IMG/VR virus record: IMGVR_UViG_3300017963_005353
Coordinates: 1-64,000 of that record
Direction: 5' to 3' (one strand)
Origin: a virus
Length of the DNA: 64,000 bases
The notes below the pieces were generated by a model, which was given only the letters and a program-made list of their open reading frames with translations, was not told where the DNA came from and made no database searches. Shown piece by piece: positions 2,765-46,390 of the stretch; the stretch's first letter is position 1; each line of letters begins with the position of its first letter. A program made the position numbers and the translations under genes.

Positions 2765-3991
2765 ATGCCTGCCCTTAAAACTCCACAGATTGTTCCGGGC
2801 GTTTCACCCGGCGAGCAGGTACTCGACATGCGCGACCCGACCGGGCGGTCCAGCTTCATGGCCGGCACGCCCCAACCCATGGCCGCGCGTGCGACCGATC
2901 CGGTCATCTCGCCCACCTACTCACAGCCGGCCGACTTTACCGCCCAATATCCCACGCCGCTTGACCCCACCGAGGTCATTGCGATGTGCGAGGAAGTGAC
3001 GCTGTTCCAGTTCATCCCTGAGCAGATGGGCTCACTGCAAGCCGAGCTCTGGCGCGAGCTCAACGAACTGGCTTTCTCGTCAGGCTCCACCTATATCGCC
3101 TTTGCCGATGGTGCCTGCCCCGAGGAGTACGAGCACGATGGCGACAACACGACCATCACACTCAAAAACCTGGGGGCCAAGAAAAGCCTGGGGATCAGCG
3201 ACATCATGCACTCCACCGCCGTGGCTGCCGCGAACTGGCACGGCATCAACCGCCTGGTCGGTGGTGCCCCAACGGGTGAAGGGATGCCGGGCGGGGCCGA
3301 CATGGGCACGTTCGTGCAGGAGAGTGTCGCCGGCCTCAAAGAGAAGGAAATGCGCCTGGGCATGAGCCTGGTCATCAACGGCTACGATCGTTTGCTGGCC
3401 GTGGGCAACGCCACGACCAATACCCTGGAGTTCGATGGCATCGAAAACCAGGTGACGAACGCCAATGGCAGCCACGTGGTCGTCAGCGGCGCATCTGGTA
3501 CCATCTCGGCCATCAGCTTCGACCGGTTCCTCACCGAATCGTGTGCCAAGCCAACGGTCGTCATGGGCCACCCGCAGGCCATCCAGGAGCTTCTGTCTGC
3601 CTATTTCCAGTTGGGCTTCCAGGGGTCCCAGGTCGTGAACTTTGCGACCGGCAACCGCATCACGCCGGGCTACAATTTCGCATCGTTCATCAACACCGCC
3701 GTGGGGCAGCTTCAGGTGGTCGCCGACAACAACTTCACGCGCACCGCATCTGGCTCCACGACCTTCCAGTCCGACATCTTTGCCCTACGCATGGTCCACA
3801 ACGGCGAGCCGCTGGTCTACCGCCGCACGCAGATCCCGCTCGCTTTCAAGGACCTGGTGCCCGGATGCACGGCCATCAGCTTTGAGATCTGGACCAAGAC
3901 CGCGCTGATCGTGAAATACCGCTGCGCTCACGGGCGGTACACCTCACTGTTCACCGGTCAGATCCAGACGACCTGCCCTGTCATCGGGTAG
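2765..3991 (+). CDS. Major capsid protein (HK97-fold, predicted)
   Basis: A 408-residue protein directly after the protease/scaffold gene, the canonical place for the HK97-fold major capsid protein. The ATG at 2765 is chosen because AAGGAGGA (2753-2760) lies just upstream; an in-frame start at 2699 has no such site. The first ~75 residues are Pro/Thr-rich and look like a maturation arm. The middle is alpha/beta, and the C-terminal third is beta-rich with a run ending FEIWTKTALIVKYRCAHGRY. Assignment rests on length, composition and synteny rather than a signature motif. No membrane or signal sequence is visible. Confidence 0.75.
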   Translation: MPALKTPQIVPGVSPGEQVLDMRDPTGRSSFMAGTPQPMAARATDPVISPTYSQPADFTAQYPTPLDPTEVIAMCEEVTLFQFIPEQMGSLQAELWRELNELAFSSGSTYIAFADGACPEEYEHDGDNTTITLKNLGAKKSLGISDIMHSTAVAAANWHGINRLVGGAPTGEGMPGGADMGTFVQESVAGLKEKEMRLGMSLVINGYDRLLAVGNATTNTLEFDGIENQVTNANGSHVVVSGASGTISAISFDRFLTESCAKPTVVMGHPQAIQELLSAYFQLGFQGSQVVNFATGNRITPGYNFASFINTAVGQLQVVADNNFTRTASGSTTFQSDIFALRMVHNGEPLVYRRTQIPLAFKDLVPGCTAISFEIWTKTALIVKYRCAHGRYTSLFTGQIQTTCPVIG

Positions 3992-4098: not shown

Positions 4099-4338
4099 AT
4101 GCCTGTCACCAACGAGAGCGGGGAAGTGGCCGTAATCTATAGAAACAACGTCCCAAGACTGGTGGACGGCAAGCACGTCTTTGCCGTCAAGCATGGCATT
4201 TCCCTTGCCTGGGTTCCAGAGGCGACCGCTGCCGCCCTGATCCGCCGCAGGTCAACGTGTCGGGGCTGTGGCAACAAAAAGCTGTTTGCCTTTGCCACCG
4301 AGGGCCAAGTCAGCCATTGGCTCTCCGGAGGGAGATGA
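4099..4338 (+). CDS. Small protein with CxxC motif
   Basis: A 79-residue protein. The ATG at 4099 is preferred over a TTG at 4072 because GGAGG lies at 4087-4091 and the TTG sits in the stem-loop. Residues ~20-60 are mixed charge, then CRGCGNKKLF gives a single CxxC pair, so any metal site would need a dimer or partner. It opens the glycan gene run, three bases before the RmlD-like gene. Function unknown. Confidence 0.6.
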   Translation: MPVTNESGEVAVIYRNNVPRLVDGKHVFAVKHGISLAWVPEATAAALIRRRSTCRGCGNKKLFAFATEGQVSHWLSGGR

Positions 4339-4341
4339 GTC

Positions 4342-5178
4342 ATGCGGATAGGCGTCACCGGTCCCCATGGGCGTTTAGGTTCTGAGTTGGTCCGCCAGGG
4401 TTGTGTGCCCATCGAGGCGGACGTTACGCATTTCTACGCGCTCAAGACTGCGGTTGAAGCCGCCGAGTGTGACGTGATCGTGCACTGCGCGGCCATGACC
4501 GACGTGGACGCCTGTGAGACAGACCCCTCGACCGCCGCCGCGATCAACACCGGGGGCGTTGCCCACCTCCTGCAAGCCCATCCCGGGCGCATCGTCTATC
4601 TCTCTACCGATTACATCTTCGACGGGGGCAGCCCCACTTTCACCCAAACACAGCCGGCCGGCCCCTATTCCGAGACGTGGCCCCCCAATCCCATCTCGGT
4701 CTACGGCTGGTCCAAGCTCGGTGGGGAAATCCTGATCCGCAACGCCCGCCGCCCGGGGTGTCTGACCGTTCGCACGACCGTGCTTTTTGACGGGCGGAGT
4801 GGGTGTTTCGTGGCGAAAGTGCTGGACAAGCTCATGCGCGATGAATACGTCTATGTTCCCGATGAGCTTTACGGGAGCCCAACCTACATTCCCCACCTGG
4901 CGACCGACATCCTCCTGGCGATAGAGCGCAACGTGACGGGCGTGCTCAACCTGGCCGGTGTGCACGTCATTTCTCGGTATGAGTTCGCCCGGAGGATCGC
5001 GGAGGCCGCCGATGTGCCGCTGACCCTGGTGAAGAGGGGCAAAACCCTGGGGGCCGCTCCCCGGCCCAAGCAAGCGGGCCTGACGATCAACAAGGCCACG
5101 CACCTGGGCTTTTTGCCCCGGGATCCGCTGGCCGTTTTACCGCAAATCATAGCACAAAGACACGGAGGCGAGACATGA
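4342..5178 (+). CDS. RmlD-like dTDP-4-dehydrorhamnose reductase / SDR epimerase
   Basis: A 278-residue extended short-chain dehydrogenase of the RmlD substrate-binding family. It has the N-terminal Rossmann motif GVTGPHGRLG, HCAAMTDVDACE, STDYIFDG and the catalytic YGWSK. Length is near E. coli RmlD (~299). RmlD family members reduce a 4-keto nucleotide sugar with NAD(P)H. The next gene (4-bp overlap) is a sugar 3-dehydrase-like enzyme, so the substrate may be a 3,6-dideoxy-4-keto nucleotide sugar rather than dTDP-rhamnose precursor. No RmlA, RmlB or RmlC is visible here, so the sugar donor would come from the host. Confidence 0.85.
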   Translation: MRIGVTGPHGRLGSELVRQGCVPIEADVTHFYALKTAVEAAECDVIVHCAAMTDVDACETDPSTAAAINTGGVAHLLQAHPGRIVYLSTDYIFDGGSPTFTQTQPAGPYSETWPPNPISVYGWSKLGGEILIRNARRPGCLTVRTTVLFDGRSGCFVAKVLDKLMRDEYVYVPDELYGSPTYIPHLATDILLAIERNVTGVLNLAGVHVISRYEFARRIAEAADVPLTLVKRGKTLGAAPRPKQAGLTINKATHLGFLPRDPLAVLPQIIAQRHGGET

Positions 5179-6368
5179 GAGAGACCTGGAAAGTGTGGAG
5201 GCTTGGAGATCCCATCACAGTTAATCGCATCGTGTGGGATCAGCGAGAGGTCGAAAATGTGCTGGATGTGTTTCAGTTGGACTGGTTTGGCCCGCGCACC
5301 TATGCGGAGATGGCAGAAACGTTCCTGGGCCGGCTTCACGATGACCGGTTTGCCCAGCTGCTCAATTCCGGTTCGTCGGCCCTATTCTTGGGCACACTCG
5401 CCCTGCAAAAGATGGGCCTGTGGAAACGGGGCGACAAGATTCTGACACCTGTTTGCACCTTCCCCTCCACGGCAAACCCCATCTGGCAGGCAGGCATGAT
5501 CCCTGTCTTTGTGGACGTGGAGGAAGGAACGTACAACATCGACGCTGAATTGGCGTTCGATGCCCTGGACGAGCACCCGGACATCGCCGGCGCCATCATT
5601 CCCCACCTGTTGGGCAACATCCCCAACATGCACGACCTGACGACCATGCTCGGGGACCGCCCGCTCATCGAGGACTGCTGCGACACGCTCCTGGGAGAAT
5701 ACGATGGGCAGTTGGTCGGCACTTTTGGGGACGCGGCGGCCTTTTCATTTTACGGGTCCCACCACGTCACCGCTGCCGGCGTGGGCGGGGCGTTGGTGTG
5801 TGCGGATCCGGACATGCACGAAATTGTCCACAGCATGGCCTTTTGGGGGCGCGATTTTGCCCCGACCGGAGAGCCTTACACCGATTTTCTCAACCGCTAT
5901 CGCTACCGGGAGATCGGGTTCGACATGCAGATGACCGAGATCCAGGCGGCCTTTCTGGTCGCTCAACTCGAGCGATTGCACCACATTGTCGAACTCAGGC
6001 ACCAACGGTTTCTGGAGCTCTTTGACGCCCTGATCGCCTATGACCATTTGCTGGTGCTGCCCAGGCAGCACGATGACGCGGAGCCCTCCTGGTTTGGGTT
6101 CCCGGTGCTGGTAAGGGAGGATGCGCCATTCGACCGGGAGGAGTTTGTGCGCTACCTGCTTGAAATGAAGGTGGAGATCCGCCCCCTGTTCGCCGGCAAT
6201 CTATTGAGGCAGCCTGCTTACAGGGACAGCCCCCATCTCCTTGTCGGGGATACGACCCAGGCAGACCGGTGCATGGAGCGGGCGTTTTTCCTGCCATCGT
6301 GGAACATGCCCCAGGACTGCATGGATCGCTTGATCGAGATAGTAGTGGGGTTTTTGGATGAGCAGTAG
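5175..6368 (+). CDS. PLP-dependent sugar 3-dehydrase-like protein (DegT family, Lys to His)
   Basis: A 397-residue fold-type I PLP enzyme of the DegT/DnrJ/EryC1 family. Diagnostic blocks are NSGSSAL, TPVCTFPSTANP, IEDCCDTLLG and WGRD. Where aminotransferases have SFxxxK, this protein has SFYGSHH (His196-His197), so the PLP-anchoring Lys is replaced by His. That is the hallmark of the 3-dehydrases ColD and E1/RfbH, which remove the C3 hydroxyl from CDP- or GDP-4-keto-6-deoxyhexoses. The WGRD block is shared with E1, but the E1 cysteine cluster for a 2Fe-2S centre is absent, so a ColD-like, iron-free mechanism is inferred. It overlaps the RmlD-like gene by 4 bp. Confidence 0.85.
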   Translation: MRETWKVWRLGDPITVNRIVWDQREVENVLDVFQLDWFGPRTYAEMAETFLGRLHDDRFAQLLNSGSSALFLGTLALQKMGLWKRGDKILTPVCTFPSTANPIWQAGMIPVFVDVEEGTYNIDAELAFDALDEHPDIAGAIIPHLLGNIPNMHDLTTMLGDRPLIEDCCDTLLGEYDGQLVGTFGDAAAFSFYGSHHVTAAGVGGALVCADPDMHEIVHSMAFWGRDFAPTGEPYTDFLNRYRYREIGFDMQMTEIQAAFLVAQLERLHHIVELRHQRFLELFDALIAYDHLLVLPRQHDDAEPSWFGFPVLVREDAPFDREEFVRYLLEMKVEIRPLFAGNLLRQPAYRDSPHLLVGDTTQADRCMERAFFLPSWNMPQDCMDRLIEIVVGFLDEQ

Positions 6369-6380
6369 GGAGAAAGAAAC

Positions 6381-7142
6381 ATGGGGCTTGTCTTAATTCC
6401 TGGGCAAGAGGCGACAATCAAGACCTCGGTGATCGTGCCGGTCTGGAACCGGGCCGATCTGACCATGGCCTGGCTCAACCGGCACTGGAGCCTGTACAGA
6501 GGCAGGCCCGACGTTGAGGTGGTGATCGTCAACAATGGGTCAACCGACACGACGCCAGCCATCCTGGTCCAATGGGGCAAAGTCTATGGTGACGCGCTCC
6601 AGGTGGTGACGCACGACGAAAACCGGGGATTCAGCGCGGGCAACAATGCCGGCGCAGCAGTCGCCAGAGGTTCGGTGCTTGTGTTCACCTCCAATGACGT
6701 GATTGTCAACGGTGATTACCTGGGACCGGTAGAGCAGCGGCTAAACGGGCAAGATGTTCTCCTGGGCGCACAGATATTGACCATCGACACGGGTTGGAAC
6801 ACGTTCCGGGGTGTCGAGGTTGAGACCGTCGCCGAGGGGCGAGACCCCAAGCGGGAGCCAGAGCCAACCGTCATTCCCTACCTGGCGGGGCACCTGGTCG
6901 CTGCCAACCGCTCGACGTGGGATCGCATAGGAGGATGGGACGAACGGTATAAACCGAGCGACTATGAGGACATCGACCTGTCCTATACGGCCATTCGGTT
7001 GGGTATCCCATTGGTCGCCATTGCCCTGCCCGTCAAGCATCTGTTTGGGCAGTCGGCGGGCCAACTACACGGAGGGCGTGAGGCCATCACGTTCCAGAGC
7101 CGGGCCAAGTTCATGGAGAAATGGGGGTTGTCAGAGCCATGA
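6381..7142 (+). CDS. Glycosyltransferase family 2
   Basis: A 253-residue GT-A enzyme. It has TSVIVPVWNRADL at the start of the nucleotide-binding fold, VVIVNNGSTDTT, ENRGFSAGNNAGA and a DxD-equivalent at TSNDVIV. WDERYKPSDYEDIDLSYTA carries the acceptor-side acidic cluster typical of rhamnosyl-type GT2 enzymes. No membrane segment is present, so it is likely cytosolic or peripheral. It follows the 3-dehydrase gene by 12 bp in the same operon; donor and acceptor are unknown. Confidence 0.9.
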   Translation: MGLVLIPGQEATIKTSVIVPVWNRADLTMAWLNRHWSLYRGRPDVEVVIVNNGSTDTTPAILVQWGKVYGDALQVVTHDENRGFSAGNNAGAAVARGSVLVFTSNDVIVNGDYLGPVEQRLNGQDVLLGAQILTIDTGWNTFRGVEVETVAEGRDPKREPEPTVIPYLAGHLVAANRSTWDRIGGWDERYKPSDYEDIDLSYTAIRLGIPLVAIALPVKHLFGQSAGQLHGGREAITFQSRAKFMEKWGLSEP

Positions 7143-7402
7143 GAATGGAGATACACAATAAAGTGAGACTGCGCCCATGTAGATGGAAATGGCACATTAG
7201 CCAACCCAATGTCGAGTGGGATTGTGGGGTCTTTCACCTGTTCTTTCCCTGGGAAGGCATTGTGGGAGCAGTGCTAGAAAATGGCAATGGGGAGGTTATC
7301 GTGGTACACGACATCGCCACTTCCCTAGCCTTACAATTCACCGATAACCTGGCCGGTGAGATATTCGATCTGGAAACCAGGTCAAGGAGTGAGAATGGAT
7401 AA
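7139..7402 (+). CDS. Hypothetical protein
   Basis: An 87-residue protein starting at an ATG that overlaps the glycosyltransferase stop (ATGA). Residues ~5-70 look beta-rich and aromatic (RWKWHISQP, FHLFFPWEG). No known motif is recognised. Its 4-bp coupling and tail overlap with the following membrane protein gene support it being translated. Function unknown. Confidence 0.6.
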   Translation: MRMEIHNKVRLRPCRWKWHISQPNVEWDCGVFHLFFPWEGIVGAVLENGNGEVIVVHDIATSLALQFTDNLAGEIFDLETRSRSENG

Positions 7403-8234
7403 TTACTATCTCATGGGGCGAACCTACAAAGGCAAGCTGCGCGACATGACCTCTGGCATTGGCCCCCTGCTCCTGCTCATGGGGCTTTTTCTCCTGGCCG
7501 CCGCTCTGTCTAGTGTGCCGTGGCTCGCTCCCGATTGGGAGAACTTCTATCGCCCTGGGGCTCTGTCCGCCAGGCCCAACGACGTTTTTGGGAACTATGC
7601 CCCGCCCTGGACCTACCCGGTGCTGTGGCCCATCGCCGTCTTGGGCGATGGCCTGAGCAAGGGCGTGCTCACCCTGGCAACTGTTTTTGTATGCTGGCGG
7701 TTCATGGGTTCCTGGCGGCGGTTCGCCCTGTTGTGCCTGACCATGCCGTTCGTGGCGACGGTCGCCTTTGGGCAGATTGACACCCTTTCCCTGGTCGGGT
7801 TGATGGCGCCGGCCGACTTATCTCTGCTGTTCCTGACCATGAAGCCCCAGGGGGCGATACTGGCAGCACTCAAAGAGCGGTTGACAGTCCGCTCGGTCTG
7901 TATCCTGCTGATCCTGGTTGCAGTTTCGCTCCTCCTGTGGGGTTGGTGGCCGGCCAGTTTGCTGGCCCGTACAGACTGGAGTACAGACTGCTCACCCTGG
8001 CCCTATGGTATCCCCTTTGGCCTGGGCCTGCTGTATTGGCAGTGGAAACGGGGGTTTGACAGCGATTCGGCGTTGTGTGTGGCAACGCTCCTGCTGGTGC
8101 CATACTTTTTCTACACGTCCATGCTGCCGGCTGTGGCGGCAACTATCAAGGAAATGGACGACGATTGGCCCATGATGCTCCTGGTCGTAGGCGTAACCTG
8201 GCTGATGGTCATCTTTGCGGGGGTTGGGTTGTGA
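7395..8234 (+). CDS. Polytopic membrane protein, GT87/DUF2029-like
   Basis: A 279-residue integral membrane protein with about seven or eight hydrophobic segments. The ATG at 7395 has AAGGAG at 7384-7389 and is preferred over an upstream in-frame ATG. After the first segment come an Asp-containing loop (LAPDWENFYRPG) and a WTYPVLWP block, then GQIDTLSLVGL and LTMKPQGAIL. These resemble GT-C polyprenyl-phosphate-mannose-dependent transferases of the GT87/DUF2029 type. It is shorter than usual (~400), so it may be a reduced enzyme. It sits among glycosyltransferases. Confidence 0.65.
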   Translation: MDNYYLMGRTYKGKLRDMTSGIGPLLLLMGLFLLAAALSSVPWLAPDWENFYRPGALSARPNDVFGNYAPPWTYPVLWPIAVLGDGLSKGVLTLATVFVCWRFMGSWRRFALLCLTMPFVATVAFGQIDTLSLVGLMAPADLSLLFLTMKPQGAILAALKERLTVRSVCILLILVAVSLLLWGWWPASLLARTDWSTDCSPWPYGIPFGLGLLYWQWKRGFDSDSALCVATLLLVPYFFYTSMLPAVAATIKEMDDDWPMMLLVVGVTWLMVIFAGVGL

Positions 8235-8965
8235 GGGTGATCGTCCTGGCCCGGACGTTAAACGAAGAGCGAAACATTGCCCGGTTCTGCCGGTGCTATG
8301 CCCAGGCCGATGCCATCCTTGTGGCAGACGGGGGAAGCACCGACCGGACGGTGGAGATTGCTCGCCAATTTGAAAACGTGGAGGTTCGTCACTTTCGGGA
8401 AAGGACGCACTATCCCGGGGGCGTCATTTTCAACCCGGAGACGCAGCACATTAACTTTCTCATAGATTGGGCGGTGAGGGAGCAAAGCCCCGATTGGCTG
8501 GTCAACGATGACGTGGACTGCATACCGACTGCCGACCTACATCGTGACATGCTTGGGCTGCTCGCCGCTGCCCTGGCTCCTGTGGTTTGTGCTTATAGGC
8601 TGTATGTCTGGGGAGAGCGCATGTATCTGCCCCGGATGAGCTTGCAGGGGCAATCCTTGTGGGCGTGGCAACCCCGGCTCAAGTCCGACATCAGAGGGGA
8701 TGAAAGCCTGCCGGAAACCCAGTACGGATTCACCGGCATACCACCCGCCTACACCGATGGGCGGATCGACCTGGCGGCCCCGTTCTGCCTGTTGCATTAT
8801 TTTGCACCATCCGAAGCCGCCTATGCTGAGAGAATGGTACAATACGCTGCCAGGGGTACGCCCATCGTGCCCATCAGGGAGACCGAATATTGGCCGCCCG
8901 AACCTTTGCCCGTTTGGGCGGTTCCTCCGAAGATTGCAGAGGGGAGCCATGTCAGAGCAGGTTAA
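8231..8965 (+). CDS. Glycosyltransferase family 2
   Basis: A 244-residue GT2-like protein starting at a GTG that overlaps the previous stop (GTGA). It begins VRVIVLARTLNEERNIARF, then ADGGSTDRTVEIA and WLVNDDVDCIP, which supplies the acidic metal-binding cluster. The C-terminal half is more divergent, with Trp/Tyr-rich stretches. It probably transfers a sugar from a nucleotide donor in the cytosol. Its end overlaps the DUF5662-like gene by 17 bp. Confidence 0.85.
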   Translation: MRVIVLARTLNEERNIARFCRCYAQADAILVADGGSTDRTVEIARQFENVEVRHFRERTHYPGGVIFNPETQHINFLIDWAVREQSPDWLVNDDVDCIPTADLHRDMLGLLAAALAPVVCAYRLYVWGERMYLPRMSLQGQSLWAWQPRLKSDIRGDESLPETQYGFTGIPPAYTDGRIDLAAPFCLLHYFAPSEAAYAERMVQYAARGTPIVPIRETEYWPPEPLPVWAVPPKIAEGSHVRAG

Positions 8966-9422
8966 AACGCTCGTCACCATACTGCGCCACCAGCGGATCG
9001 TCGCCGCCTACATGCGTCGGCTGGCCTATGCGCTCCTGGAGGTGGCGGAGGTCCACGACCTGTCAAAACTGAGCCTGGACGAGTTTGGCGGATTTGTTGA
9101 GATGAACCACGTTGCCAGGGAGCACAAATTCGGCTCAGAAGAATACTATGCTGCCCTGGAGAACAGGGACGACGTTGTGGGATTGCACTATCAACGCAAC
9201 CGCCACCACCCGGAGCACCACGACCGGGGCATTGATGACATGACCCTGGTGGACCTGGTGGAAATGGTCGCTGACTGGCAAGCGGCCAGCGACGTTTACG
9301 GGAAAGCCACGTTTGAAGAGGGGTTGAAGGTGCTGAGGGATCGGTTTGGGCTCACGTCCTGTCATCTGCACTTGATATGGCTGATTCATGACGTGTTCGT
9401 GGGGGAGACAGAGAGGCCATGA
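8949..9422 (+). CDS. DUF5662-like (HD-related) protein
   Basis: A 157-residue alpha-helical protein with a run of metal-ligand-like residues: HDLSKLSLDEFGG near residue 37, then HYQRNRHHPEHHDRG near 80 and MVADWQAASDVYG. This pattern matches the DUF5662 family, often found in phages and thought to be HD-domain related. Biochemical function is unknown. The start at 8949 gives a product that begins MSEQVKTLVTILRHQ; upstream in-frame sequence is inside the glycosyltransferase. Confidence 0.65.
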   Translation: MSEQVKTLVTILRHQRIVAAYMRRLAYALLEVAEVHDLSKLSLDEFGGFVEMNHVAREHKFGSEEYYAALENRDDVVGLHYQRNRHHPEHHDRGIDDMTLVDLVEMVADWQAASDVYGKATFEEGLKVLRDRFGLTSCHLHLIWLIHDVFVGETERP

Positions 9423-10015
9423 GAGACTACAGGCACATCGACCGGTATTTGACCGAACTCCAGGCAGACGTCTACCCGCAGCCGCAAGACGACCAGACCC
9501 AGGGGCTCATCGCTCAACTGGCGAAACAATGGCTGCCACGGTTGCAGGGGCTCGACAGCATCCTTGACGTGGGCTGTGCCCAGGGACAGGCCATTCCCAT
9601 CCTGGAGAAATATTGTCCGAACGTCGTGGGGGCAACGCTCGGTACCGACGCCATGGTTGCCAGCCAACAGGGGCACACCGTCTACTACGCCGACATGTCC
9701 TTTCTCCCCTTTGGAGAGGGGGAGTTCAAGCTGCTCTGGTGCCGCCACGTGCTCGAGCACTCACCCATGCCGCTCATCACGCTCATGGAGTGGCACCGGG
9801 TCGCCCGCCAGTGGTGCATCTGTGTGGTGCCGACCATCGAGGCCCATGGCTACGGGGATGCCAGCGATCAGCACTACTATGTCCTCCACGAAAAGCAGTG
9901 GAAAAACTTGTTTCAACGAACCGGCTGGCACGTGCTATGGCAGGACTATTCCTATGGCGTCGAAATGCGCTGGCTCCTGGAGAAAAAGGAACGACCGAAA
10001 GGATCGCCCTCATGA
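9419..10015 (+). CDS. SAM-dependent methyltransferase (class I)
   Basis: A 198-residue Rossmann-type methyltransferase. Motif I is ILDVGCAQGQAI, followed by a ligand loop near GATLGTD, motif II/III around YYADMSFLPFGEGEF, and WCRHVLEHSPMP, which fits Methyltransf_11. It lies in the glycan operon, coupled by ATGA at both ends, so O-methylation of a sugar or glycan end is the natural guess. The target is not shown by the sequence. Confidence 0.88.
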   Translation: MRDYRHIDRYLTELQADVYPQPQDDQTQGLIAQLAKQWLPRLQGLDSILDVGCAQGQAIPILEKYCPNVVGATLGTDAMVASQQGHTVYYADMSFLPFGEGEFKLLWCRHVLEHSPMPLITLMEWHRVARQWCICVVPTIEAHGYGDASDQHYYVLHEKQWKNLFQRTGWHVLWQDYSYGVEMRWLLEKKERPKGSPS

Positions 10016-10473
10016 CCGACGTAAGGCTGACCGATATAAAGTGGATCGACCCTGGCGTGGCCCAGGCCCTTGACGGGGCCGGTGTGACTGTTGAGACCCT
10101 GGCCGCCATGACCGCAAACGAGCTTCTGGGGAAATTCCCGTTTGTGGGAACGATCAACGCCTGGCTCCTGACCGACGAGGCCCGGTATGTCATGGGACAG
10201 GTGGAGGCAGGGCTGTGGTCGCCACAAGAGAAACTCGACCTGGAAATGACCCTGAAAGAGCTTGAGGAAATAGAGCGACAAGAGGCCATGGAACGAATAC
10301 GCCCGCGCATGAAATGGCCTCCCGATACCCCTGCCCAGGTACAGACCAGCGGCAAATCGGTCCGTGTGGAGCGGATAGAGGCTCAAAGGGCACGCCAGGC
10401 CCAACTGGACGCCGAGCGGGAACGGTTGGTCAAGCTGATCCTGGATCAAGACGATGAGGAGGATCCAGAATGA
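10012..10473 (+). CDS. Helix-hairpin-helix-like small protein
   Basis: A 153-residue protein starting at an ATG overlapping the methyltransferase stop. Residues ~14-60 (GVAQALDGAGVTVETLAAMT, then FPFVGTINAW) resemble the HhH repeat found in RNA polymerase alpha C-terminal and NusA-like domains. Residues ~75-153 are highly charged and probably coiled coil, ending DDEEDPE. It may bind nucleic acid or act as a scaffold. A DNA-binding-like protein in a sugar operon is unexpected. Confidence 0.6.
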   Translation: MTDVRLTDIKWIDPGVAQALDGAGVTVETLAAMTANELLGKFPFVGTINAWLLTDEARYVMGQVEAGLWSPQEKLDLEMTLKELEEIERQEAMERIRPRMKWPPDTPAQVQTSGKSVRVERIEAQRARQAQLDAERERLVKLILDQDDEEDPE

Positions 10474-11381
10474 AGGTCGTGCTGTCGGGCATTTACTACC
10501 CGTTTGCCATTCTCCGGTATTTTGAACTGGCCTTGCGTCGGCGTGACGACGTGGAGTTGATCACGGTCGGTCCCTGGACCGGGGCGTGGATACCGTGGAA
10601 CGGGGGCATGAATTTACCCATGCAGTACGCCGGCCGGCCCGACATGGCGTTTCCCAACACGCAAACCTTTCGCAACCTGCCTGTATCGTTCGTGGAGGCC
10701 AAGCTGGCCGCCGCGAATCTTGGGCCGGTTGACCTGTGGCTCCAGGTAGACGCCGGTTTCTACCTGGATGGGCATCCATCGCATGGCAAAAACGTCATCG
10801 TCGCTACTGATCCGCATGTGCTGAACTATGACCGGCAACGGACACTGGCAGATGTTTTCTACTGTATGCAGCAGACCTATGCCAAACCGGGGGATGTGTA
10901 TCTGCCCTACGCCCACGACCCAATTCATCACGCTCCCCCTGACGAACCGGTGGACAAGGAGTTTGACTGCTGCCTGCTCGGGTTGCACTACCCGCAGCGG
11001 GTAGAGCTCGTCAGGCAGTTGAGGGTACGGAACATCTCAGTCAAGTTCGCTTTAGGTCCGATATATGAGGAGGCTCGTCAGTTTTACAACGCTGCCCACA
11101 TCGGTCTCAACTGGTCGAGCCTCCTTGATTTGAACGCCCGCGTGTTCGAACTCCTGGGGTTTGGCGTGCTGGCGGTGGTCAACCGGGTGCCTGACCTGGG
11201 CCGGTTTTTCAAGGAGGACGAGCACCTGGTCGTGTTTGATGACATGAAGGAAGCGGTTGAAAAGGTGGTGTACTATCTTGACCGCGCCGACGAACGAGAG
11301 CGGATCGCCGCCCAGGGGCACAGGGCCGTTTCGGGACACACGTGGGACGCTCGTGTGGCGACGATCTTGGAGGGGGCATAA
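10470..11381 (+). CDS. Glycosyltransferase, CgeB/GT1-like
   Basis: A 303-residue GT-B-type protein. The C-terminal half has YNAAHIGLNWSS, NARVFELLGFGVLAVVNRV and a terminal EDEHLVVFDDMKE block, typical of the Glyco_trans_1_2 (CgeB/YkvP) group. The N-terminal half begins MKVVLSGIYYPF. It is coupled to its neighbour by ATGA. A role in adding a sugar to a phage or host surface component is inferred from the cluster. Confidence 0.8.
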   Translation: MKVVLSGIYYPFAILRYFELALRRRDDVELITVGPWTGAWIPWNGGMNLPMQYAGRPDMAFPNTQTFRNLPVSFVEAKLAAANLGPVDLWLQVDAGFYLDGHPSHGKNVIVATDPHVLNYDRQRTLADVFYCMQQTYAKPGDVYLPYAHDPIHHAPPDEPVDKEFDCCLLGLHYPQRVELVRQLRVRNISVKFALGPIYEEARQFYNAAHIGLNWSSLLDLNARVFELLGFGVLAVVNRVPDLGRFFKEDEHLVVFDDMKEAVEKVVYYLDRADERERIAAQGHRAVSGHTWDARVATILEGA

Positions 11382-11384
11382 GGT

Positions 11385-11780
11385 ATGAGCAAGCGGATAA
11401 ACAGGGCGCCAGCCGTCGTCAAGCACCTGGGGGAGCCCAAAGAGGCCCGGACTCTAAAGGGCACGATCGTGCACCGGCAAGACAAGCTGTGGGTTGATCA
11501 GTGGGGGCGGTTTGTGCCCTGTGCTCCCTATGACGATCACTTTCTCTATGAGAGCCCGGACAAGACACCGGGCAGCCCGACGTTCATGTGCACCTGTGGA
11601 AGTGCGGCCATCATCGTGGGAGCGGGCAAGGCAGAGATGTTCGTGTGCATGATGCACGTCACCACAGGCAAACACACGACGAGCTTGGTCAATATCAAAG
11701 ACTTTCCAGACATTGGGGGGCAGACCATCGGAGAGCCTGGGCCGGGCATTGACCTGCCAGGAGGAAAGCTGAAACTATGA
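11385..11780 (+). CDS. Hypothetical protein with CxC motif
   Basis: A 131-residue protein. The N-terminus is basic (MSKRINRAPAVVKHLG). A central FMCTCGSAAIIVG and later FVCMMHVTTGKH give three Cys and two His in a spacing that could bind zinc, but no named family is recognised. It starts four bases after the previous stop, and its own stop overlaps the next ATG. Confidence 0.6.
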   Translation: MSKRINRAPAVVKHLGEPKEARTLKGTIVHRQDKLWVDQWGRFVPCAPYDDHFLYESPDKTPGSPTFMCTCGSAAIIVGAGKAEMFVCMMHVTTGKHTTSLVNIKDFPDIGGQTIGEPGPGIDLPGGKLKL

Positions 11781-12061
11781 GCACTGGTCCTGGACGACCA
11801 GTACAGGGCGACACAAACGCCACCGAACAAGTTGACGCCACTGGTGCTCAGGTCCATGAGATTTCCATTGACGCCAAACACCTGGTTACACTCACCTTTC
11901 CGGAGGGTACGTCATCTAAGCGGGCCAGCCACACGATTCAATCCATGCGCCGATTGCTGGACGAATGGTGGACAAACCGCCAGCCCTTTTTGGTTGTGGG
12001 ACTTCTGGATGGTCTGGAACTCCGGTTTCACAGAAAAAAGACCGAAGAGGATGCCGGGTGA
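11777..12061 (+). CDS. Hypothetical small protein
   Basis: A 94-residue soluble protein coupled by ATGA to its upstream neighbour and by GTGA to the glycosyltransferase downstream. The first ~30 residues are low in structure, followed by a beta/alpha stretch (HEISIDAKHLVTLTF) and a basic helix-rich end. No family recognised. The tight coupling on both sides is the main support. Confidence 0.6.
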   Translation: MSTGPGRPVQGDTNATEQVDATGAQVHEISIDAKHLVTLTFPEGTSSKRASHTIQSMRRLLDEWWTNRQPFLVVGLLDGLELRFHRKKTEEDAG

Positions 12062-13128
12062 AAATTGACCTGTTGTGCAACGATGGATCTCCCCTAGGTG
12101 TTGTTCCCGGGGACATATATGGGCGGGGCGTTGGCGGGGCAGAATTGTCGATGCTCACCTGGGCGACGACCATGGCCGCCAGGGGACATCAGGTTCGCGT
12201 GTTCAACGATCCCAAACCGCCCGGCGTCCATGATGGGGTAGAGTTCCTCCCCAGGAGCGCGTTTGAGCCAAGAGACGGCACGCGGGATGCTTTCGTGATC
12301 TACCGTTCCCCCAATGCCCACACGAAAGCGGGGCAGGCAGCGATCAAGGTACACTGGTCTATGGACCAGTTTACGGTCGGAAACTACTCGCTGGACATTG
12401 TACCACATGTGGATACGATTGTATGCATTTCACCCTACCATGTGCAGGACTACCGGAACCGGTATCACCCGCCAGTGGAGAAAATGGGCTACCTGGACCT
12501 GGGGGTCAAACTGGCCGACTATGACCAGAAGGTGGAGAAAGTGCATGGGTTGTGTATCTTCTGCTCGATGCCCGACCGGGGGCTGCGCCATTTGCACCCG
12601 CTGTGGGCCAGGATTCTTGAGCAAGAGCCGGGCGCAACGCTGGTCATCACAGGCGATTATACCCTGTGGGGAGCAAAGAATCCGGGCAACCATCAGCACC
12701 GGCTCCAATGGTTGCACACGCCCGGCGTCAAGTTCGTGGGGAATATCCCACGGGAGGAACTGGTCAAGGCCCAATTGGAGGCCCAGGTTCATGCCTATCC
12801 TTGCGTCTATAAGGAATTGTTCTGCATCGCCGCCGCCGAGTGCCAAGTGGCCGGGGCGGTGCCCATCACGACGCCGACGGGAGCCCTGGCGACGACCAAT
12901 GCGTTCGGGTTTCTCCTGCCCGGCAACATTCTGGCCTCTCGTTGGCAGCACATGTTCGTCAAAGCGGTGATCGCTGCCATGCGAATGACCAATGCCGAGC
13001 GGGAGACGATGCGGGCACAGGCCCGCGCCAGGTTCGATTGGAATGTCATTTGCGGGCAGTGGGAAACCCTGTTGGAGACGGGCCAGTTCCCGGAAGGACA
13101 CCGTGGGGATCAGTTGGGGAAACCGTAA
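12058..13128 (+). CDS. Glycosyltransferase family 4-like
   Basis: A 356-residue GT-B protein starting at a GTG that overlaps the previous stop. RGVGGAELSMLTWATTMAARG is the N-terminal glycine-rich acceptor-domain signature (GGAE). The C-terminal donor domain has TLVITGDYTLW, KFVGNIPREELVKAQLEAQ and CIAAAECQVAGAVPITTPTG, where the Glu of ELFCIAAAE matches the conserved E of GT4 enzymes. Donor and acceptor are unknown. It ends the first half of the glycan module, just before an antisense gene. Confidence 0.88.
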   Translation: MKIDLLCNDGSPLGVVPGDIYGRGVGGAELSMLTWATTMAARGHQVRVFNDPKPPGVHDGVEFLPRSAFEPRDGTRDAFVIYRSPNAHTKAGQAAIKVHWSMDQFTVGNYSLDIVPHVDTIVCISPYHVQDYRNRYHPPVEKMGYLDLGVKLADYDQKVEKVHGLCIFCSMPDRGLRHLHPLWARILEQEPGATLVITGDYTLWGAKNPGNHQHRLQWLHTPGVKFVGNIPREELVKAQLEAQVHAYPCVYKELFCIAAAECQVAGAVPITTPTGALATTNAFGFLLPGNILASRWQHMFVKAVIAAMRMTNAERETMRAQARARFDWNVICGQWETLLETGQFPEGHRGDQLGKP

Positions 13129-13430
13129 TGACCGCTTGAGGGCACGGGCGGGATGGCACTTCTGAGGCTTGAAAGAAACGTGAGTCGATGTTGCGTGCTG
13201 AACTGCCTGAGCGGGGAGGACATGATAGCGTAGCGCACGCAAAGCAGGTGCTTGCAGGCGGCCTTGCCGATGGCGAGCACCGCGAAAGAGCGGCTCTTGA
13301 TGTTGGCCGCCCCGTTCATCATGACGCCGGAGATGGGCTTTAGCACCAAGGGCAGGCCATAGAACCGCATCCCGCAAACGGGGCATTGGACGTGGAGGTC
13401 CTGGACTCGGAAAATGGTTTGATCGTCCAT
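13110..13430 (-). CDS. Antisense small protein with CPVCG motif (moron candidate)
   Basis: A possible 106-residue protein on the opposite strand from everything around it, filling the only sizeable break in the plus-strand glycan operon. It starts MDDQTIFRVQDLHVQCPVCG; alternative in-frame ATGs lie at 13454 and 13472. A CxxC pair is followed by basic and hydrophobic stretches, with no recognised family. Support comes from a near-consensus minus-strand promoter 31 bp upstream (13461-13489). No Shine-Dalgarno site is obvious, and its 3' end overlaps the plus-strand glycosyltransferase by 19 bp, so coding is uncertain. Confidence 0.4.
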   Translation of the reverse strand: MDDQTIFRVQDLHVQCPVCGMRFYGLPLVLKPISGVMMNGAANIKSRSFAVLAIGKAACKHLLCVRYAIMSSPLRQFSTQHRLTFLSSLRSAIPPVPSSGHYGFPN

Positions 13431-13460
13431 GGTGAAGGGGCTCACTGGAAACATGCTTAA

Positions 13461-13489
13461 ATTGTACCACATTCGATATATTCTGTCAA
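13461..13489 (-). promoter_or_regulatory. Sigma-70-type promoter, minus strand
   Basis: On the minus strand, TTGACA (13484-13489) and TACAAT (13461-13466) are separated by exactly 17 bases, with TGG directly before the -10. It would start RNA near 13454 and read leftwards into the antisense reading frame. Confidence 0.75.
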
Positions 13490-13498
13490 GGAAAACAC

Positions 13499-14677
13499 AT
13501 GACTATAGTTTATGTTTCCGATTTTGACCTGCGCGGCTCAGGTTATATGAACATAGCGGTCTCCATGTGCACCGGCCTCGTCGAGCAACATGGGCGGGAC
13601 GTGATCGCCCTGGGGTTTGGGTATGACGGGCGAGAGCACCATCACCCGTTCAAGATCGTGCCCAGCAAGCCCCAGCTTGTGCCAGACATGGTACGCTTGT
13701 TGGGACAGCAAGAGGTGGACATCGAGGCCATCGTGGTGGCCCTGGATATACCCTTGCAGGAAGCTCTCATGAGAAAGGTACAGGTGCCGGGTGAAATCCC
13801 CTACATCGGCCTGTTCCCGGTGGAGGGGCCACCTGTCACCATGTCGTGGGCCATGCAACTCGCCAGGATGGATCAAGCCCTTGTCATGAGCCGGTTTGGA
13901 CAAAAGGCGCTCGCCGACGCTGGTGTACAGGCAACCTATGTGCCCATCGGGGTCAACTGTGCCCAATGGCGACCGCCAGTAGAGAACGAAAGGATTATGA
14001 TCCGGGAGGGCCTGGGAATCCCCGACGACGTGTTCATGGTGCTGACCGTGGCCGACAACCAGGAGCGGAAAAACCTGTCTGTTGCCATGGAGATATTCGC
14101 CCATTTCTCCCTGGACGTTGAAGAAACCGACCAGTATGGGCATATTTTGAGCGCAACGCCAAAGCGACCCACACAATGGCACCTGGTCACACGGCCAGAA
14201 TCGCCCATCGGGTTCAAGCTCAACGACCTGGCGATGGACATGCAGGTCATGGATCGCCTGGTGCTTTACAACCGGGGGATGCCGTTCAAGGCCCTGTGGT
14301 CCCTGTTTGTGGCGGCTGATGCTTTCCTGCTGACCAGCAAGGCCGAGGGGCTTGCCATGCCAGTGTTGGAGGCCATGGCCTGCCGGCTGCCTGTGGTGGG
14401 CACAGACACGTGTGCCATACACGAGCACCTCACCTCCGGGCGGGGGTTGCTCATCAAGCCGGGCTATCTGATGATCGACCCGTGGGGCAACTCTCAAAGG
14501 GCTCTGGCCGACAGGGATGCGGGCGTGAGAGCCCTGGAGCGGTTGGCAGACATGGATACGGACAAGCGAGAGGCCATGCTTGACAAAGCCCAGGGCTATG
14601 TGCAAAAACGAACCTGGGACAAAGCAGTCAATGTGTTGAACGAGGCCATAGATCAGGCGGTGAGGAGCAAACAGTGA
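13499..14677 (+). CDS. Glycosyltransferase family 4
   Basis: A 392-residue GT-B enzyme. The donor domain shows TVADNQERKNLSVAMEIFA and LVLYNRGMPFKALWSLFVAA, then the E-x7-E signature in SKAEGLAMPVLEAMACRLP. The N-terminal half starts TIVYVSDFDLRGSGYMNI. An AAGGA lies just upstream of the ATG. It follows the antisense gene and restarts the plus-strand run. Length is typical of the family. Confidence 0.9.
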   Translation: MTIVYVSDFDLRGSGYMNIAVSMCTGLVEQHGRDVIALGFGYDGREHHHPFKIVPSKPQLVPDMVRLLGQQEVDIEAIVVALDIPLQEALMRKVQVPGEIPYIGLFPVEGPPVTMSWAMQLARMDQALVMSRFGQKALADAGVQATYVPIGVNCAQWRPPVENERIMIREGLGIPDDVFMVLTVADNQERKNLSVAMEIFAHFSLDVEETDQYGHILSATPKRPTQWHLVTRPESPIGFKLNDLAMDMQVMDRLVLYNRGMPFKALWSLFVAADAFLLTSKAEGLAMPVLEAMACRLPVVGTDTCAIHEHLTSGRGLLIKPGYLMIDPWGNSQRALADRDAGVRALERLADMDTDKREAMLDKAQGYVQKRTWDKAVNVLNEAIDQAVRSKQ

Positions 14678-15576
14678 GTCGGAAAAGGAAAAAGGGTAAA
14701 CGCCCCAGGAAACCACGACAGCAGGCCGGGCGGGTTCGACAGGACACCATGCTCGATGTGGTGATCCCCGTCTATGGCCGGCCCGATATGCTCGGCCAAT
14801 GCCTGGCGGCCCTGGCGGCGACGGCCGGCGACCTGTCCTATTCCCTGTTCGTCGTGGACGACAAGGGACCCGATCAAGAGGCGTTGCAAAAAATCTATGC
14901 CGCGCTACCCCCTGACGCCTGGCTGTTACGCAATGCCCAAAACATGGGCTTTCCCTACACTGCCAACAGGGGGGCCGAACAGGGCAGGAGCGAGTTTATT
15001 GTGTTCCTGTCCACGGACATCGTGTTGCAAGAGGGGTGTCTGCAAGCGATGATAGGCGAGATGTTGGAGAACCCAAAAACAGGTGTCGTCGGGGCAAAGC
15101 TGCTTTTCCCCGAAGAGAGCGACGACCCGGCCCGGCCCGTGGGCAAGATCCAGCACGCGGGCCTGTGTGTCAACATTCAGGGCAACCTGGCCCATGCCAA
15201 CATAGGATGGAGCCCTGACCATCTCAAGGTCAACCAGCGCCGGGTGCTTCAGGCCGTGACCGGGGGGCTCCTGATGACCCGCCGTGAGACCTGGCAGCGC
15301 GTAGCTAAATACTACAGGCAGATTGACGGGGACCCGACCCGAGGGGGTTTCAACCTGGTCTATGGCAAGGGCACCTATGAGGATGTGGAATACTGCATCG
15401 CCGCCAGGGGAAATGGGTATGACGTGGTGTACGTTCCCCAGGCTGTGGCAACGCATCACGTGGGGGCATCGGTCAAGGGCTCTGAGACAGGGGGGTTTGC
15501 CTTGAATCGCAACGCCACGATCTTTGCCGCCCGGTGCGGCCACATGCTGCATTGGGACATGTGGAGGTTTTGCTGA
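14674..15576 (+). CDS. Glycosyltransferase family 2
   Basis: A 300-residue GT2 starting at a GTG overlapping the previous stop. After a very basic N-terminal tail (SRKRKKGKRPRKPRQQ) come LDVVIPVYGRPDMLGQCL, LFVVDDKGPD, NMGFPYTANRGAEQG and LSTDIVLQ (DxD-like). TGGLLMTRRETW and TYEDVEYCIAARGNGYD follow, as in dTDP-rhamnosyltransferase-like GT2 enzymes. The basic tail could bind membrane or nucleic acid. It is the last gene of the glycan insertion. Confidence 0.9.
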   Translation: MSRKRKKGKRPRKPRQQAGRVRQDTMLDVVIPVYGRPDMLGQCLAALAATAGDLSYSLFVVDDKGPDQEALQKIYAALPPDAWLLRNAQNMGFPYTANRGAEQGRSEFIVFLSTDIVLQEGCLQAMIGEMLENPKTGVVGAKLLFPEESDDPARPVGKIQHAGLCVNIQGNLAHANIGWSPDHLKVNQRRVLQAVTGGLLMTRRETWQRVAKYYRQIDGDPTRGGFNLVYGKGTYEDVEYCIAARGNGYDVVYVPQAVATHHVGASVKGSETGGFALNRNATIFAARCGHMLHWDMWRFC

Positions 15577-16298
15577 TGAGCGCTTTGCACATTATCACAA
15601 CGCCGAGCATCCTTACCGATGCCATATTCACTCAATACGGGGGTCAAACGGGTACGTCTACAGCCGCCCAACGCCGGGCCGCCTACTGTATTGCGGAAGG
15701 GGCAGCGGTGGACGAGATCGGCACGTTCCTATCGCCGACAACCTTCACAGGCACGTTTCAATGGCCTCCCCAAGGGCAGTTCTACAAACTGCCTCACGAC
15801 CAGGTAACAGCCATCACCAGCTTGTACAGCATCCATGAGGCCGGGTGTGAGTGCGCCGATACCGTGGTTGAATTGGAGGGGTGCGCCTGGATCGACGACA
15901 CAGACAATGGAATCATCGACGTGCGAGAGGTGGGCAACACGGCCAAGGCTGCGTGCTCTGCCTGCTGCTCTTGTGCTGGCTCCCCATGGGGCTATGGCGT
16001 GCCCTACCAGTTTCGCGTGGTCTACCAGGCCGGCCTGCCCACAGAGGCCGCCAGTGACCCGCGCCTACTCATGGGACTGACCGAGTTTGCCGACCTTGCC
16101 CTGGAGCAAATCATTGATCCAAGCGGGGCAGAGGGTGGGCCGGGTGATCCCGGCGTGCAGGAGTTCTCCTCCCAGGGATACAGCGAGAAACGGACGAAAC
16201 TGAAAAGCACTGCCATGGGAAGTTCCGCTCGGGCGAACTATGCCGCAAAACTGCTGCGGTCCTTCTCTCGCCATGGGGCGCTCAAGTTAGGATGGTGA
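15576..16298 (+). CDS. Head-tail connector (gp6-like, predicted)
   Basis: A 240-residue protein with a start at 15576 that overlaps the previous stop and has TGGAGG upstream. The N-terminal helix-rich part resembles gp6-like/DnaT-like connectors, which usually lie between capsid and gp10-like genes, exactly its place here if the sugar insertion is ignored. It is odd in holding seven cysteines between residues 91 and 133 (including CEC and CSACCSC), which could form disulfides or bind metal. Assignment is by synteny. Confidence 0.5.
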   Translation: MSALHIITTPSILTDAIFTQYGGQTGTSTAAQRRAAYCIAEGAAVDEIGTFLSPTTFTGTFQWPPQGQFYKLPHDQVTAITSLYSIHEAGCECADTVVELEGCAWIDDTDNGIIDVREVGNTAKAACSACCSCAGSPWGYGVPYQFRVVYQAGLPTEAASDPRLLMGLTEFADLALEQIIDPSGAEGGPGDPGVQEFSSQGYSEKRTKLKSTAMGSSARANYAAKLLRSFSRHGALKLGW

Positions 16299-30505: not shown

Positions 30506-30891
30506 GGGTCGCCGCATCCGAGCAAGTTTTCGAGACGGCAAACCTAATATGGCTCGACGTGCACGGGGGCCTGATGTTCATGGTCCACGAGTATGGCACG
30601 TGGATTGGCTGCCCGGACAGATGGGCGGGACAGGCGTATGACCCGATCCAGGTGGGAGAGGGCCGATCGGCTGTGGTGCGCGGCTTTGGCTACCTTTTCC
30701 ACCTGGCACGGGATGGGCGGTCGATCGTCTCGCTGGGGCAAACTGGGCAGCCGATCTCAAAAGAGCAGGGATACAAGGCAGGCGTTGAAGAGCACGACGA
30801 TGGTTGGACCATGACAGACAGCTATGGGCGGGTGCTGGAGCTTAGGGTCAAACAGGGCGTTGCCCTGTGGAGCGCCTCTCACTGGCCTTAG
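30502..30891 (+). CDS. Hypothetical protein
   Basis: A 129-residue protein starting at an ATG that overlaps the previous stop (ATGA); an in-frame ATG at 30493 is possible. It is beta-rich and Trp/Gly-rich (YGTWIGCPDRWAGQAYD, DGRSIVSLGQTGQPI). No motif recognised. It is the last gene before the nucleotide-sugar genes. Confidence 0.6.
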   Translation: MRVAASEQVFETANLIWLDVHGGLMFMVHEYGTWIGCPDRWAGQAYDPIQVGEGRSAVVRGFGYLFHLARDGRSIVSLGQTGQPISKEQGYKAGVEEHDDGWTMTDSYGRVLELRVKQGVALWSASHWP

Positions 30892-30944
30892 AACGGAACC
30901 GCCCTGCGGCCCTGACAACAAACGACACTAAAGGAGGTGCAACT

Positions 30945-32204
30945 GTGGAAGATCCAAGAATCTCTGTTATTGGCCTGGGCAAGTTGGGCACGCCCATGGC
31001 CGTGGCAATGGCGGCGCGGGGGTATACCGTCATTGGCACCGACAAAAACCCCCAGACGGTAGCAGCGTTCAAGGGAGGCTGGCTGCCACGGTCCCCAAAG
31101 GAGGAGCCCGGCCTGGCCGAGGCCCTGGCAGCGGCCAACGGACGATTGGCCGTCACGGACAGCACGGCTGACGCCGTGGCGAACACCGATGTAACGTTCA
31201 TCATCGTGCCCACACCGAGCGGGGACGATGGCACGTTCGTCAACGATTACGTTCTGGCGGCCTGCTGCGGGGTGGCCCAGGGCATGGCCCGCAAAGACGC
31301 TTGGCACTTGGTCGTGCTCACGTCCACGGTCATGCCCGGCTCTGCCCCACTCATCATACAGGCTTTGGAGCAAACCGGTCTCAAGCAGGGCGAGCACTTT
31401 GGCTACTGCTACTCCCCTCTGTTCATCGCCCTGGGCAACGTGCTAAACGGGTTTCTGCAACCCGACATGATCCTGGTCGGTGCGGCCAGCCCGCTTGCCG
31501 GCGCCGAGCTCTCGGAGCTATACCGTGGCATATGTAAGGACTGCCCCCCCATAGTGTTGACAGACCCACTAACGGCCGAGTTTGCCAAGCTCTTGCTCAA
31601 CTCCTTCCTGACCACAAAGATCACCTTTGCCAACTACATCGGCTGGATCGCCCATGAGACAGGAGCAAAGGCAGCAGACATCACCAGGCTGATCGGGCTC
31701 GACAGTCGTGTGAGCCCGAAGTTTTTCTCCCATGGGCCGCCCTTTGGCGGTCCCTGCTTTCCCCGCGACAACGTGGCCCTGGCAGCCTACCTGGGAGAGC
31801 ACGACCTCTCCAACTGCTTTCCCCTGTGTGTGGACGATTTGAACTTTGAGGGCGCAATGCGGCTGGCGAATGTGGTAGAGGAGCACTCAGGGCGAGATGG
31901 AACCGTCGCCATCCTGGGCATGAGCTACAAGACCGGCTCCCCGGTGATGAACGATTCTCCATCACTCATCGTCCAGGAGTTCTTGGACGTCAGGGGGATC
32001 AACGTGGTCACGACCGACCCGTGGTTGGATGGCCCATCCCCGGAGGAGGCCATACAGGGGGCGGACGTGGTGCTGGTCATGCACAGGGACGAGCGGTACA
32101 CACGGCTGCCGTTCGAACCCGGGCAGGTCATCGTTGACCCATGGAACCAGTTTGAGTACCAGCCCCCAGGCACCCACCTGGTCAAGATTGGAGGCGGCCC
32201 GTGA
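30945..32204 (+). CDS. Nucleotide-sugar dehydrogenase (UDP-glucose/GDP-mannose type)
   Basis: A 419-residue NAD-dependent 6-dehydrogenase. The GTG at 30945 has a very strong AAGGAGGTG at 30931-30939. Features are ISVIGLGKLGTPMAVAMAARG (N-terminal NAD site), a central helical domain with AEFAKLLLNSFLTTKITFAN, and the catalytic Cys271 in FGGPCFPRDN. A C-terminal domain follows (AILGMSYKTGSPVMNDSPS). It oxidises the C6 hydroxyl of a nucleotide sugar to the acid. Substrate is not fixed by these motifs; the neighbour being a GDP-mannose epimerase makes GDP-mannose attractive. Confidence 0.9.
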   Translation: MEDPRISVIGLGKLGTPMAVAMAARGYTVIGTDKNPQTVAAFKGGWLPRSPKEEPGLAEALAAANGRLAVTDSTADAVANTDVTFIIVPTPSGDDGTFVNDYVLAACCGVAQGMARKDAWHLVVLTSTVMPGSAPLIIQALEQTGLKQGEHFGYCYSPLFIALGNVLNGFLQPDMILVGAASPLAGAELSELYRGICKDCPPIVLTDPLTAEFAKLLLNSFLTTKITFANYIGWIAHETGAKAADITRLIGLDSRVSPKFFSHGPPFGGPCFPRDNVALAAYLGEHDLSNCFPLCVDDLNFEGAMRLANVVEEHSGRDGTVAILGMSYKTGSPVMNDSPSLIVQEFLDVRGINVVTTDPWLDGPSPEEAIQGADVVLVMHRDERYTRLPFEPGQVIVDPWNQFEYQPPGTHLVKIGGGP

Positions 32205-37769: not shown

Positions 37770-37935
37770 TCGTTAGCTCCTGTGGGAATGGCGAGCGGAT
37801 AATGGTTCCTTCGGTCGGGTCGTAACGCACGACCTCCAGCCCCGTCTTACCGGTGGCCACGTGTATGGCGAAAATAGGTTCGTCGTCGGTCAGCACCAGA
37901 TTAAGACCATCTCGAATTTGCTTCCAGGTCATCAT
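37738..37935 (-). CDS. Small hypothetical protein
   Basis: A 65-residue protein whose ATG overlaps the methyltransferase stop (TGATG). Mildly acidic, with MMTWKQIRDGLNLVLTDDE at the start and a Pro/Asp-rich end. Start and stop both overlap neighbours, which supports translation. Function unknown. Confidence 0.55.
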   Translation of the reverse strand: MMTWKQIRDGLNLVLTDDEPIFAIHVATGKTGLEVVRYDPTEGTIIRSPFPQELTNDQHRDSDPQ

Positions 37936-40719: not shown

Positions 40720-40728
40720 AGCGATCTC

Positions 40729-43816: not shown

Positions 43817-43828
43817 GTCAAGAGCCTC

Positions 43829-46372: not shown

Positions 46373-46390
46373 GGAAACCTCCTTGCCATA

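Follow-up and report, generated by a model that had tools for sequence, protein, structure and literature searches.

A conserved block of glycan genes between the capsid and head-tail adaptor genes in a clade of tailed phages

The stretch of DNA analysed here (the window) comprises bases 1-64000 of the 83,525-base viral record IMGVR_UViG_3300017963_005353, and its subject is a block of glycan genes that lies between the predicted major capsid gene and the head-tail adaptor gene. Sixteen forward genes separate the capsid gene (2765-3991) from the adaptor gene (15576-16298), and those at 4342-15576 form a tightly coupled run on the same strand with six glycosyltransferases (GTs) and sugar enzymes. 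Pfam calls within this run were an RmlD-like reductase, a DegT-fold enzyme, three GT2s, one PF13524 GT, two GT4s and a methyltransferase. The features are listed below with the supporting matches (E-values where given) and, where available, their occurrence in the 30 related blocks described later.

408-2660, + strand: ChaB domain and head-maturation-protease-like protein (Pfam ChaB 1.6e-10; phrog_3017 head maturation protease 0.0036)
2765-3991 (first start 2699), + strand: predicted major capsid protein, HK97 fold (phrog_212 E=5e-4; fold model; neighbours; relatives)
4099-4338, + strand: o79, putative small conserved Cys-containing protein following the capsid gene (hidden Markov model matches in 28 loci; alignment)
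4342-5178, + strand: RmlD-like nucleotide-sugar 4-reductase (PF04321 1.3e-47; TIGR01214 2e-49, under the equivalog cut-off)
5175-6368, + strand: E1/RfbH/ColD-type nucleoside diphosphate (NDP)-4-keto-6-deoxyhexose 3-dehydratase, DegT fold (PDB 3bcx E1 1.5e-66, His aligned)
6381-7142, + strand: GT2a, core glycosyltransferase (PF00535 3.9e-18; homolog in 30/30 blocks)
7121-7402, + strand: o93, small open reading frame (ORF; the homolog search found none)
7395-8234, + strand: MP, polytopic membrane protein with about 7 hydrophobic segments (hydropathy; 47% identity to a homolog in relative L054)
8231-8965, + strand: GT2b, accessory glycosyltransferase (PF00535 5.3e-7; in many blocks)
8949-9422, + strand: DUF5662 protein (PF18907 6.6e-29)
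9419-10015, + strand: S-adenosylmethionine methyltransferase, variable cargo (PF08241 1.7e-10)
10012-10473, + strand: helix-hairpin-helix (HhH)-like small protein (common to the window and L054)
10470-11381, + strand: GT1_2, core glycosyltransferase (PF13524 2.8e-25; homolog in 26/30 blocks)
11385-11780, + strand: unk131, conserved putative Zn-binding protein (invariant C69, C71, C88 and H97; homolog in 25/30 blocks)
11777-12061, + strand: unk94, small protein (ORF and coupling)
12058-13128, + strand: GT4a, core glycosyltransferase (PF00534 3.9e-8; homolog in 26/30 blocks)
13110-13472, - strand: reverse-strand ORF in the GT4a-GT4b gap (strong promoter-like match, 11/12, at 13489-13461)
13499-14677, + strand: GT4b, core glycosyltransferase of phage family phrog_2170 (PF00534 5.7e-14; invariant E283 and E291; homolog in 30/30 blocks)
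14674-15576, + strand: GT2c, core glycosyltransferase (PF00535 1.7e-15; homolog in 30/30 blocks)
15576-16298, + strand: head-tail adaptor (phrog_442 5.1e-5; homologs placed by the adaptor profile in 17/29 relatives' records)

Genes of the run overlap by 4 bp at eight junctions, and GT2c overlaps the start of the adaptor gene by 1 bp. The initial annotation had described glycan genes between capsid and connector, on the same strand and coupled, and the ORFs, the Pfam matches and these overlaps agree with it. The span it gave for the block, 4099-15576, starts with o79, which is not a glycan gene and had no PHROG match. Not every member of the run has a glycan role either: the DUF5662 protein, the HhH-like protein, unk131 and unk94 do not, and an AlphaFold2 (AF2) model of unk131 (mean pLDDT, the predicted local distance difference test score, 74) had no fold match in the PDB. 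Between 13129 and 13498 the run is interrupted for 370 bp, and the reverse-strand ORF overlaps this gap; the ORF had no homolog in the fetched loci of relatives and is, with some uncertainty, moron-like.

The membrane protein MP had no Pfam match even at an E-value of 1, and thus matched no GT-C family profile. Its motifs, examined by eye, read like those of a GT-C/GT87 enzyme; its assignment as a GT87 member was dropped because it lacked profile support. An MP homolog was found in L054 only, a pattern scan for MP relatives returned none and so missed that one, and the gene lies outside the conserved core of the block.

Bases 1-124 recur at the end of the record, and this 124-bp terminal repeat indicates that the genome is complete at 83.5 kb. 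TerS, TerL and portal genes lie at the far end of the record and, on the circular map, read straight into the ChaB/protease-like gene and then the capsid gene. After the adaptor gene come Neck1, the tail terminator and the tape measure, in this order, by PHROG matches. The assignment of 2765-3991 as an HK97-fold capsid gene rests on the weak PHROG match, these neighbours and an AF2 model of low confidence (pLDDT 43), whose top-scoring PDB matches were nearly all HK97-fold capsid proteins or encapsulins. Searches of 50,697 phage records gave no match for the capsid protein, the adaptor or GT1_2, no capsid relative was found among the species genomes of GTDB scanned, and the top identity of TerL was about 42%, to Salinibacter phages. 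The phages of this clade are tailed and look virulent.

A two-sequence capsid profile run against IMG/VR yielded 36 relatives, most of them 57-70% identical. The set of 30 blocks compared here consists of the capsid-adaptor intervals that were fetched and loci added from a GT4b scan, and is partly non-independent, including close pairs such as L048/L049 and L073/L101; GT2a and GT2c, which are both GT2 enzymes, were told apart by the best profile score. Glycan genes occupied the capsid-adaptor site in 30/30 blocks, and none of the 29 measured gaps between the two genes (5.7-24.9 kb) was empty. On the capsid side, 27 loci extend for at least 4 kb past the capsid gene, and GT genes lie there in 26 of them. 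The full order o79-GT2a-GT1_2-unk131-(variable cargo)-GT4a-GT4b-GT2c was kept in 25 blocks, and the remaining five (L053 and four of L086 type) all finish with GT4b-GT2c ahead of the adaptor gene. The smallest block, that of L037, is approximately the bare core.

Since every relative that has both genes on record carries glycan genes between them, the block is a standing arrangement of the clade and not an insertion, as the initial annotation had called it. The idea that the block had recently entered a head operon of canonical order was rejected, because no relative has the capsid gene adjoining the adaptor gene. The synteny comparison that the annotation had proposed turned up no relatives whose glycan genes always lie elsewhere; the only exceptions were L028 and L036, in which a capsid homolog is present and the block is not nearby. 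In L036 (9995-21149), the homolog of the window capsid is followed by a fibre-like protein, TerL, portal and then a second, different capsid-like protein. In L015, 8.5 kb of other genes come first, followed by o79 and a GT2. Separately, the capsid gene of L033 is tandemly duplicated ahead of the glycan genes (9995-13819).

The genes that vary among blocks are the RmlD-like reductase (0-3 copies), the 3-dehydratase, the methyltransferase, GT2b and other cargo, including sulfotransferase-like genes. Genes for a sugar-type ATP-binding cassette (ABC) importer lie inside or near the glycan block in L039 (10774-13375), L062 (4111-5034) and L096 (2492-4194). The L039 importer consists of a permease, a binding lipoprotein and an ATPase and is accompanied by a GH42-like gene and a tRNA-synthetase-like fragment; a scan of GTDB genomes with its permease gave no indication of the host. 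Such extensive variable cargo is what would be expected if the genes were passenger metabolic cargo (morons) collected in a permissive gap without a role in the virion. The GTs, however, occur in every related block and, as described next, the core diverges together with virion genes, so that we regard this explanation as highly improbable.

The divergence of core genes was compared with that of virion genes by permutation tests on distance matrices from 16 blocks. Distances of GT4a, GT4b, GT1_2, GT2a and GT2c correlated with those of the adaptor (r 0.41-0.57, p<=0.002), and distances of GT4a, GT4b, GT1_2 and GT2c correlated with those of the capsid (r 0.26-0.45, p<=0.02). The link of the block to virion assembly is strengthened by this correlated divergence, and also by GT4b homologs that lie among the structural or packaging genes of isolated phages.

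Such homologs are rare, as GT4b matched in 6 of the 50,697 phage records. In Pontimonas phage phiPsal1 the order is capsid-GT4-methyltransferase-GT2-neck, and in Microcystis phage Mae-JY09, reached via a protein search with phiPsal1, it is capsid-x-GT4-x-SDR/epimerase-x-head-tail adaptor (SDR, short-chain dehydrogenase/reductase). The GT4b homolog of Synechococcus phage S-CBS4 lies between portal and protease, and that of TJE1 a few genes ahead of TerS. Profile scores confirm that the GT4s of the isolated phages are homologous to GT4b, and the relationship is distant. Thus, phiPsal1, Mae-JY09 and S-CBS4 resemble the window in having this GT4, which in the first two lies between capsid and neck or adaptor, but they differ in carrying only a few sugar genes and in having capsid and adaptor proteins with no relationship detectable by tblastn. 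The one paper found on these isolated phages (PMC6106888) does not discuss the role of the GTs. A GT4 pair between the capsid gene and the tape measure was also seen in an unrelated IMG/VR phage, L113, and Microbacterium cluster ED phages are reported to have several genes of unstated function inserted between capsid and connectors (PMC7302621).

What the GTs might glycosylate was approached through the presence or absence of companion genes in 28 records. The Wzx flippase (PF01943), the initiating transferase (phosphoglycosyltransferase, PF02397) and integrases (PF00239 and PF00589) were each found in 0/28. An autonomous capsule pathway was rejected for want of the flippase and the initiating transferase, and gtr-type prophage seroconversion for want of an integrase and of any capsid relative in the GTDB species genomes. 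With neither a flippase nor an initiating transferase, one would expect an acceptor that is accessible on the cytoplasmic side.

The same absences bear on a remodelling of the host surface, in which the GTs would use host lipid-linked precursors and export to change the envelope at a late stage of infection and thereby block superinfection or the re-adsorption of progeny to debris. The GTs do resemble polysaccharide-biosynthesis enzymes, MP with its GT-C-like motifs has a homolog in L054, and sugar importer genes lie within the L039 and L062 blocks. On the other hand, none of the three companion functions was found in the 28 records, MP is not part of the core, and a position in the late head operon would probably be late for superinfection exclusion. 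We therefore think this explanation unlikely.

Glycosylation of modified bases in the phage genome has a precedent in phage GTs that glycosylate DNA (Pyle 2024, as cited in a passage of PMC12619734). A PF00303 homolog was missing in 27 of the 28 records, the window's genome among them, and present only in G028, a test that covers the thymidylate synthase/dCMP hydroxymethylase route; moreover, the site of the block is fixed in the head operon and not among DNA genes. DNA hypermodification thus seems very unlikely. It is somewhat less remote, though still quite doubtful, that tail fibres or the baseplate are modified instead of the capsid and that the head-operon site is a matter of history. In the window, genes for a UDP-glucose dehydrogenase and a nucleotide-sugar epimerase (30867-33184) directly follow the tail genes and are coupled to their end, which would suit this idea; the constant neighbours of the block, however, are the capsid and adaptor genes and not fibre genes.

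Because the flippase, initiating transferase and integrase are absent and thymidylate synthase occurs once, and given the mycobacteriophage precedent, a virion protein fits best as a co-made cytoplasmic acceptor. The best explanation, and one we consider probable, is that the block serves to glycosylate the virion and has a fixed place in the head-assembly operon; here we infer the enzyme activities, the late co-expression, the virion acceptor and the benefit. Late in infection, the conserved and presumably cytoplasmic enzymes GT2a, GT1_2, GT4a, GT4b and GT2c would assemble nucleotide sugars into a short glycan. Phage enzymes would partly remodel these sugars, with the 3-dehydratase and the RmlD-like reductase leading to a 3,6-dideoxyhexose and the methyltransferase adding to the changes. 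The glycan would be attached to a virion protein of the phage itself, the likeliest candidate being the capsid protein or a partner on the particle surface, and the swappable middle of the block would change the outer sugars. The benefit may be shielding, adhesion or stability.

The deoxysugar step depends on the product of 5175-6368, whose closest solved structures are E1 and ColD. At the position of the aminotransferase Lys this protein has His, like E1. Of the two PDB entries for E1, one has Lys at the catalytic position and aligns at the same place. The His is kept in nearly all relatives. An initial reading as a DegT aminotransferase was rejected in favour of a 3-dehydratase since the catalytic His replaces the pyridoxal phosphate Lys, and this replacement together with the E1 and ColD matches makes a 3-deoxysugar the more likely product, rather than an aminosugar. 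The [2Fe-2S] Cys motif of the E1/RfbH subgroup is present in most relatives and absent in the window, L054, L057 and L103. Some relatives have an RfbF/RfbG-like pair; in six records a nucleotidyltransferase gene lies beside a CDP-glucose-4,6-dehydratase-like gene, the latter under its family cut-off, and together with E1 these would provide a route to CDP-4-keto-3,6-dideoxyglucose. As a separate observation, the E1-type 3-dehydratase gene of L080 (5218-7659) carries an intein-like in-frame insert immediately ahead of the Fe-S Cys motif.

Several points weigh against glycosylation of the virion. The acceptor and the glycan are both predicted from gene content and position. The window lacks the nucleotidyltransferase and the 4,6-dehydratase that start a deoxysugar, so the precursor must be borrowed. 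The polytopic membrane protein in the window and L054 hints at a membrane step. The divergence of GT2a did not track that of the capsid, and capsid and adaptor distances themselves correlated weakly (r 0.18, p 0.078). In addition, about 50 kb separate the GTs of mycobacteriophage Che8 from its capsid gene even though the capsid is reported to be glycosylated, meaning that a position in the head operon is neither needed for nor proof of virion glycosylation.

Glycans on capsid and tail-tube proteins of mycobacteriophages are reported in passages of PMC12619734 and PMC11256854 that cite Freeman 2023. The same passages place the glycans of Che8 on its capsid protein; Che8 is, like the window phage, a siphovirus with several phage-encoded GTs, the window phage being known from its genes. 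Che8 gp109 is a distant GT2 relative, matched by the GT2a and GT2c profiles at 8e-11 and 7e-10, and gp108 was not matched by the GT4b profile. Unlike in the window, the capsid and adaptor genes of Che8 are adjacent, its three GTs are encoded at the far right of the genome, and no sugar-nucleotide enzymes are annotated beside them. In chlorovirus PBCV-1, virus-encoded GTs make an atypical N-glycan on the major capsid protein (PMC7826918). PBCV-1 differs from the window phage in being a eukaryotic algal virus with an unrelated capsid. Its glycan genes are not known to lie in a capsid operon.

Bacterial capsule and O-antigen loci resemble the block in their conserved ends, variable central sugar genes and E1/RfbH-type 3-dehydratase, but, unlike Wzx/Wzy loci, no Wzx flippase or initiating transferase was found in the 28 records. 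A tentative extension of virion glycosylation, which we hold to be possible rather than probable, is that the clade wears a serotype-like, multi-sugar capsid coat specified by a cassette like a capsule locus that it carries itself. The constant ends of this cassette would serve to attach and lengthen the chain, and its exchangeable middle would set the outer sugars. Given the complete-looking 3,6-dideoxyhexose routes of some members and the sugar ABC importers of others, particles would then have O-antigen-like types.

The block is real and conserved, and both its position and its inheritance connect it with the virion. Glycosylated phage virions have so far been described in a few mycobacteriophages. 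A clade that occurs in many metagenomes and has a fixed, large and modular glycan locus in its head operon would point to sugar-coated particles being common beyond actinobacteriophages. Comparing members with different cassettes would make the function of phage capsid glycans testable, and phage isolates whose homologous GTs occupy the same position, such as Mae-JY09, are a starting point for laboratory work.

A second large glycan cluster lies on the - strand of the window at 36852-50408. It holds GT-like genes and genes for a methyltransferase, an O-carbamoyltransferase, a cytidylyltransferase, a Gfo/Idh/MocA oxidoreductase, an AroB-like sugar-phosphate cyclase (TIGR04425), an SDR and a 2-hydroxyacid dehydrogenase. 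Further along the same strand (51637-53243), a PAPS-reductase/DUF3440 gene lies beside a ParB-like gene, an arrangement that resembles IbrA/IbrB.

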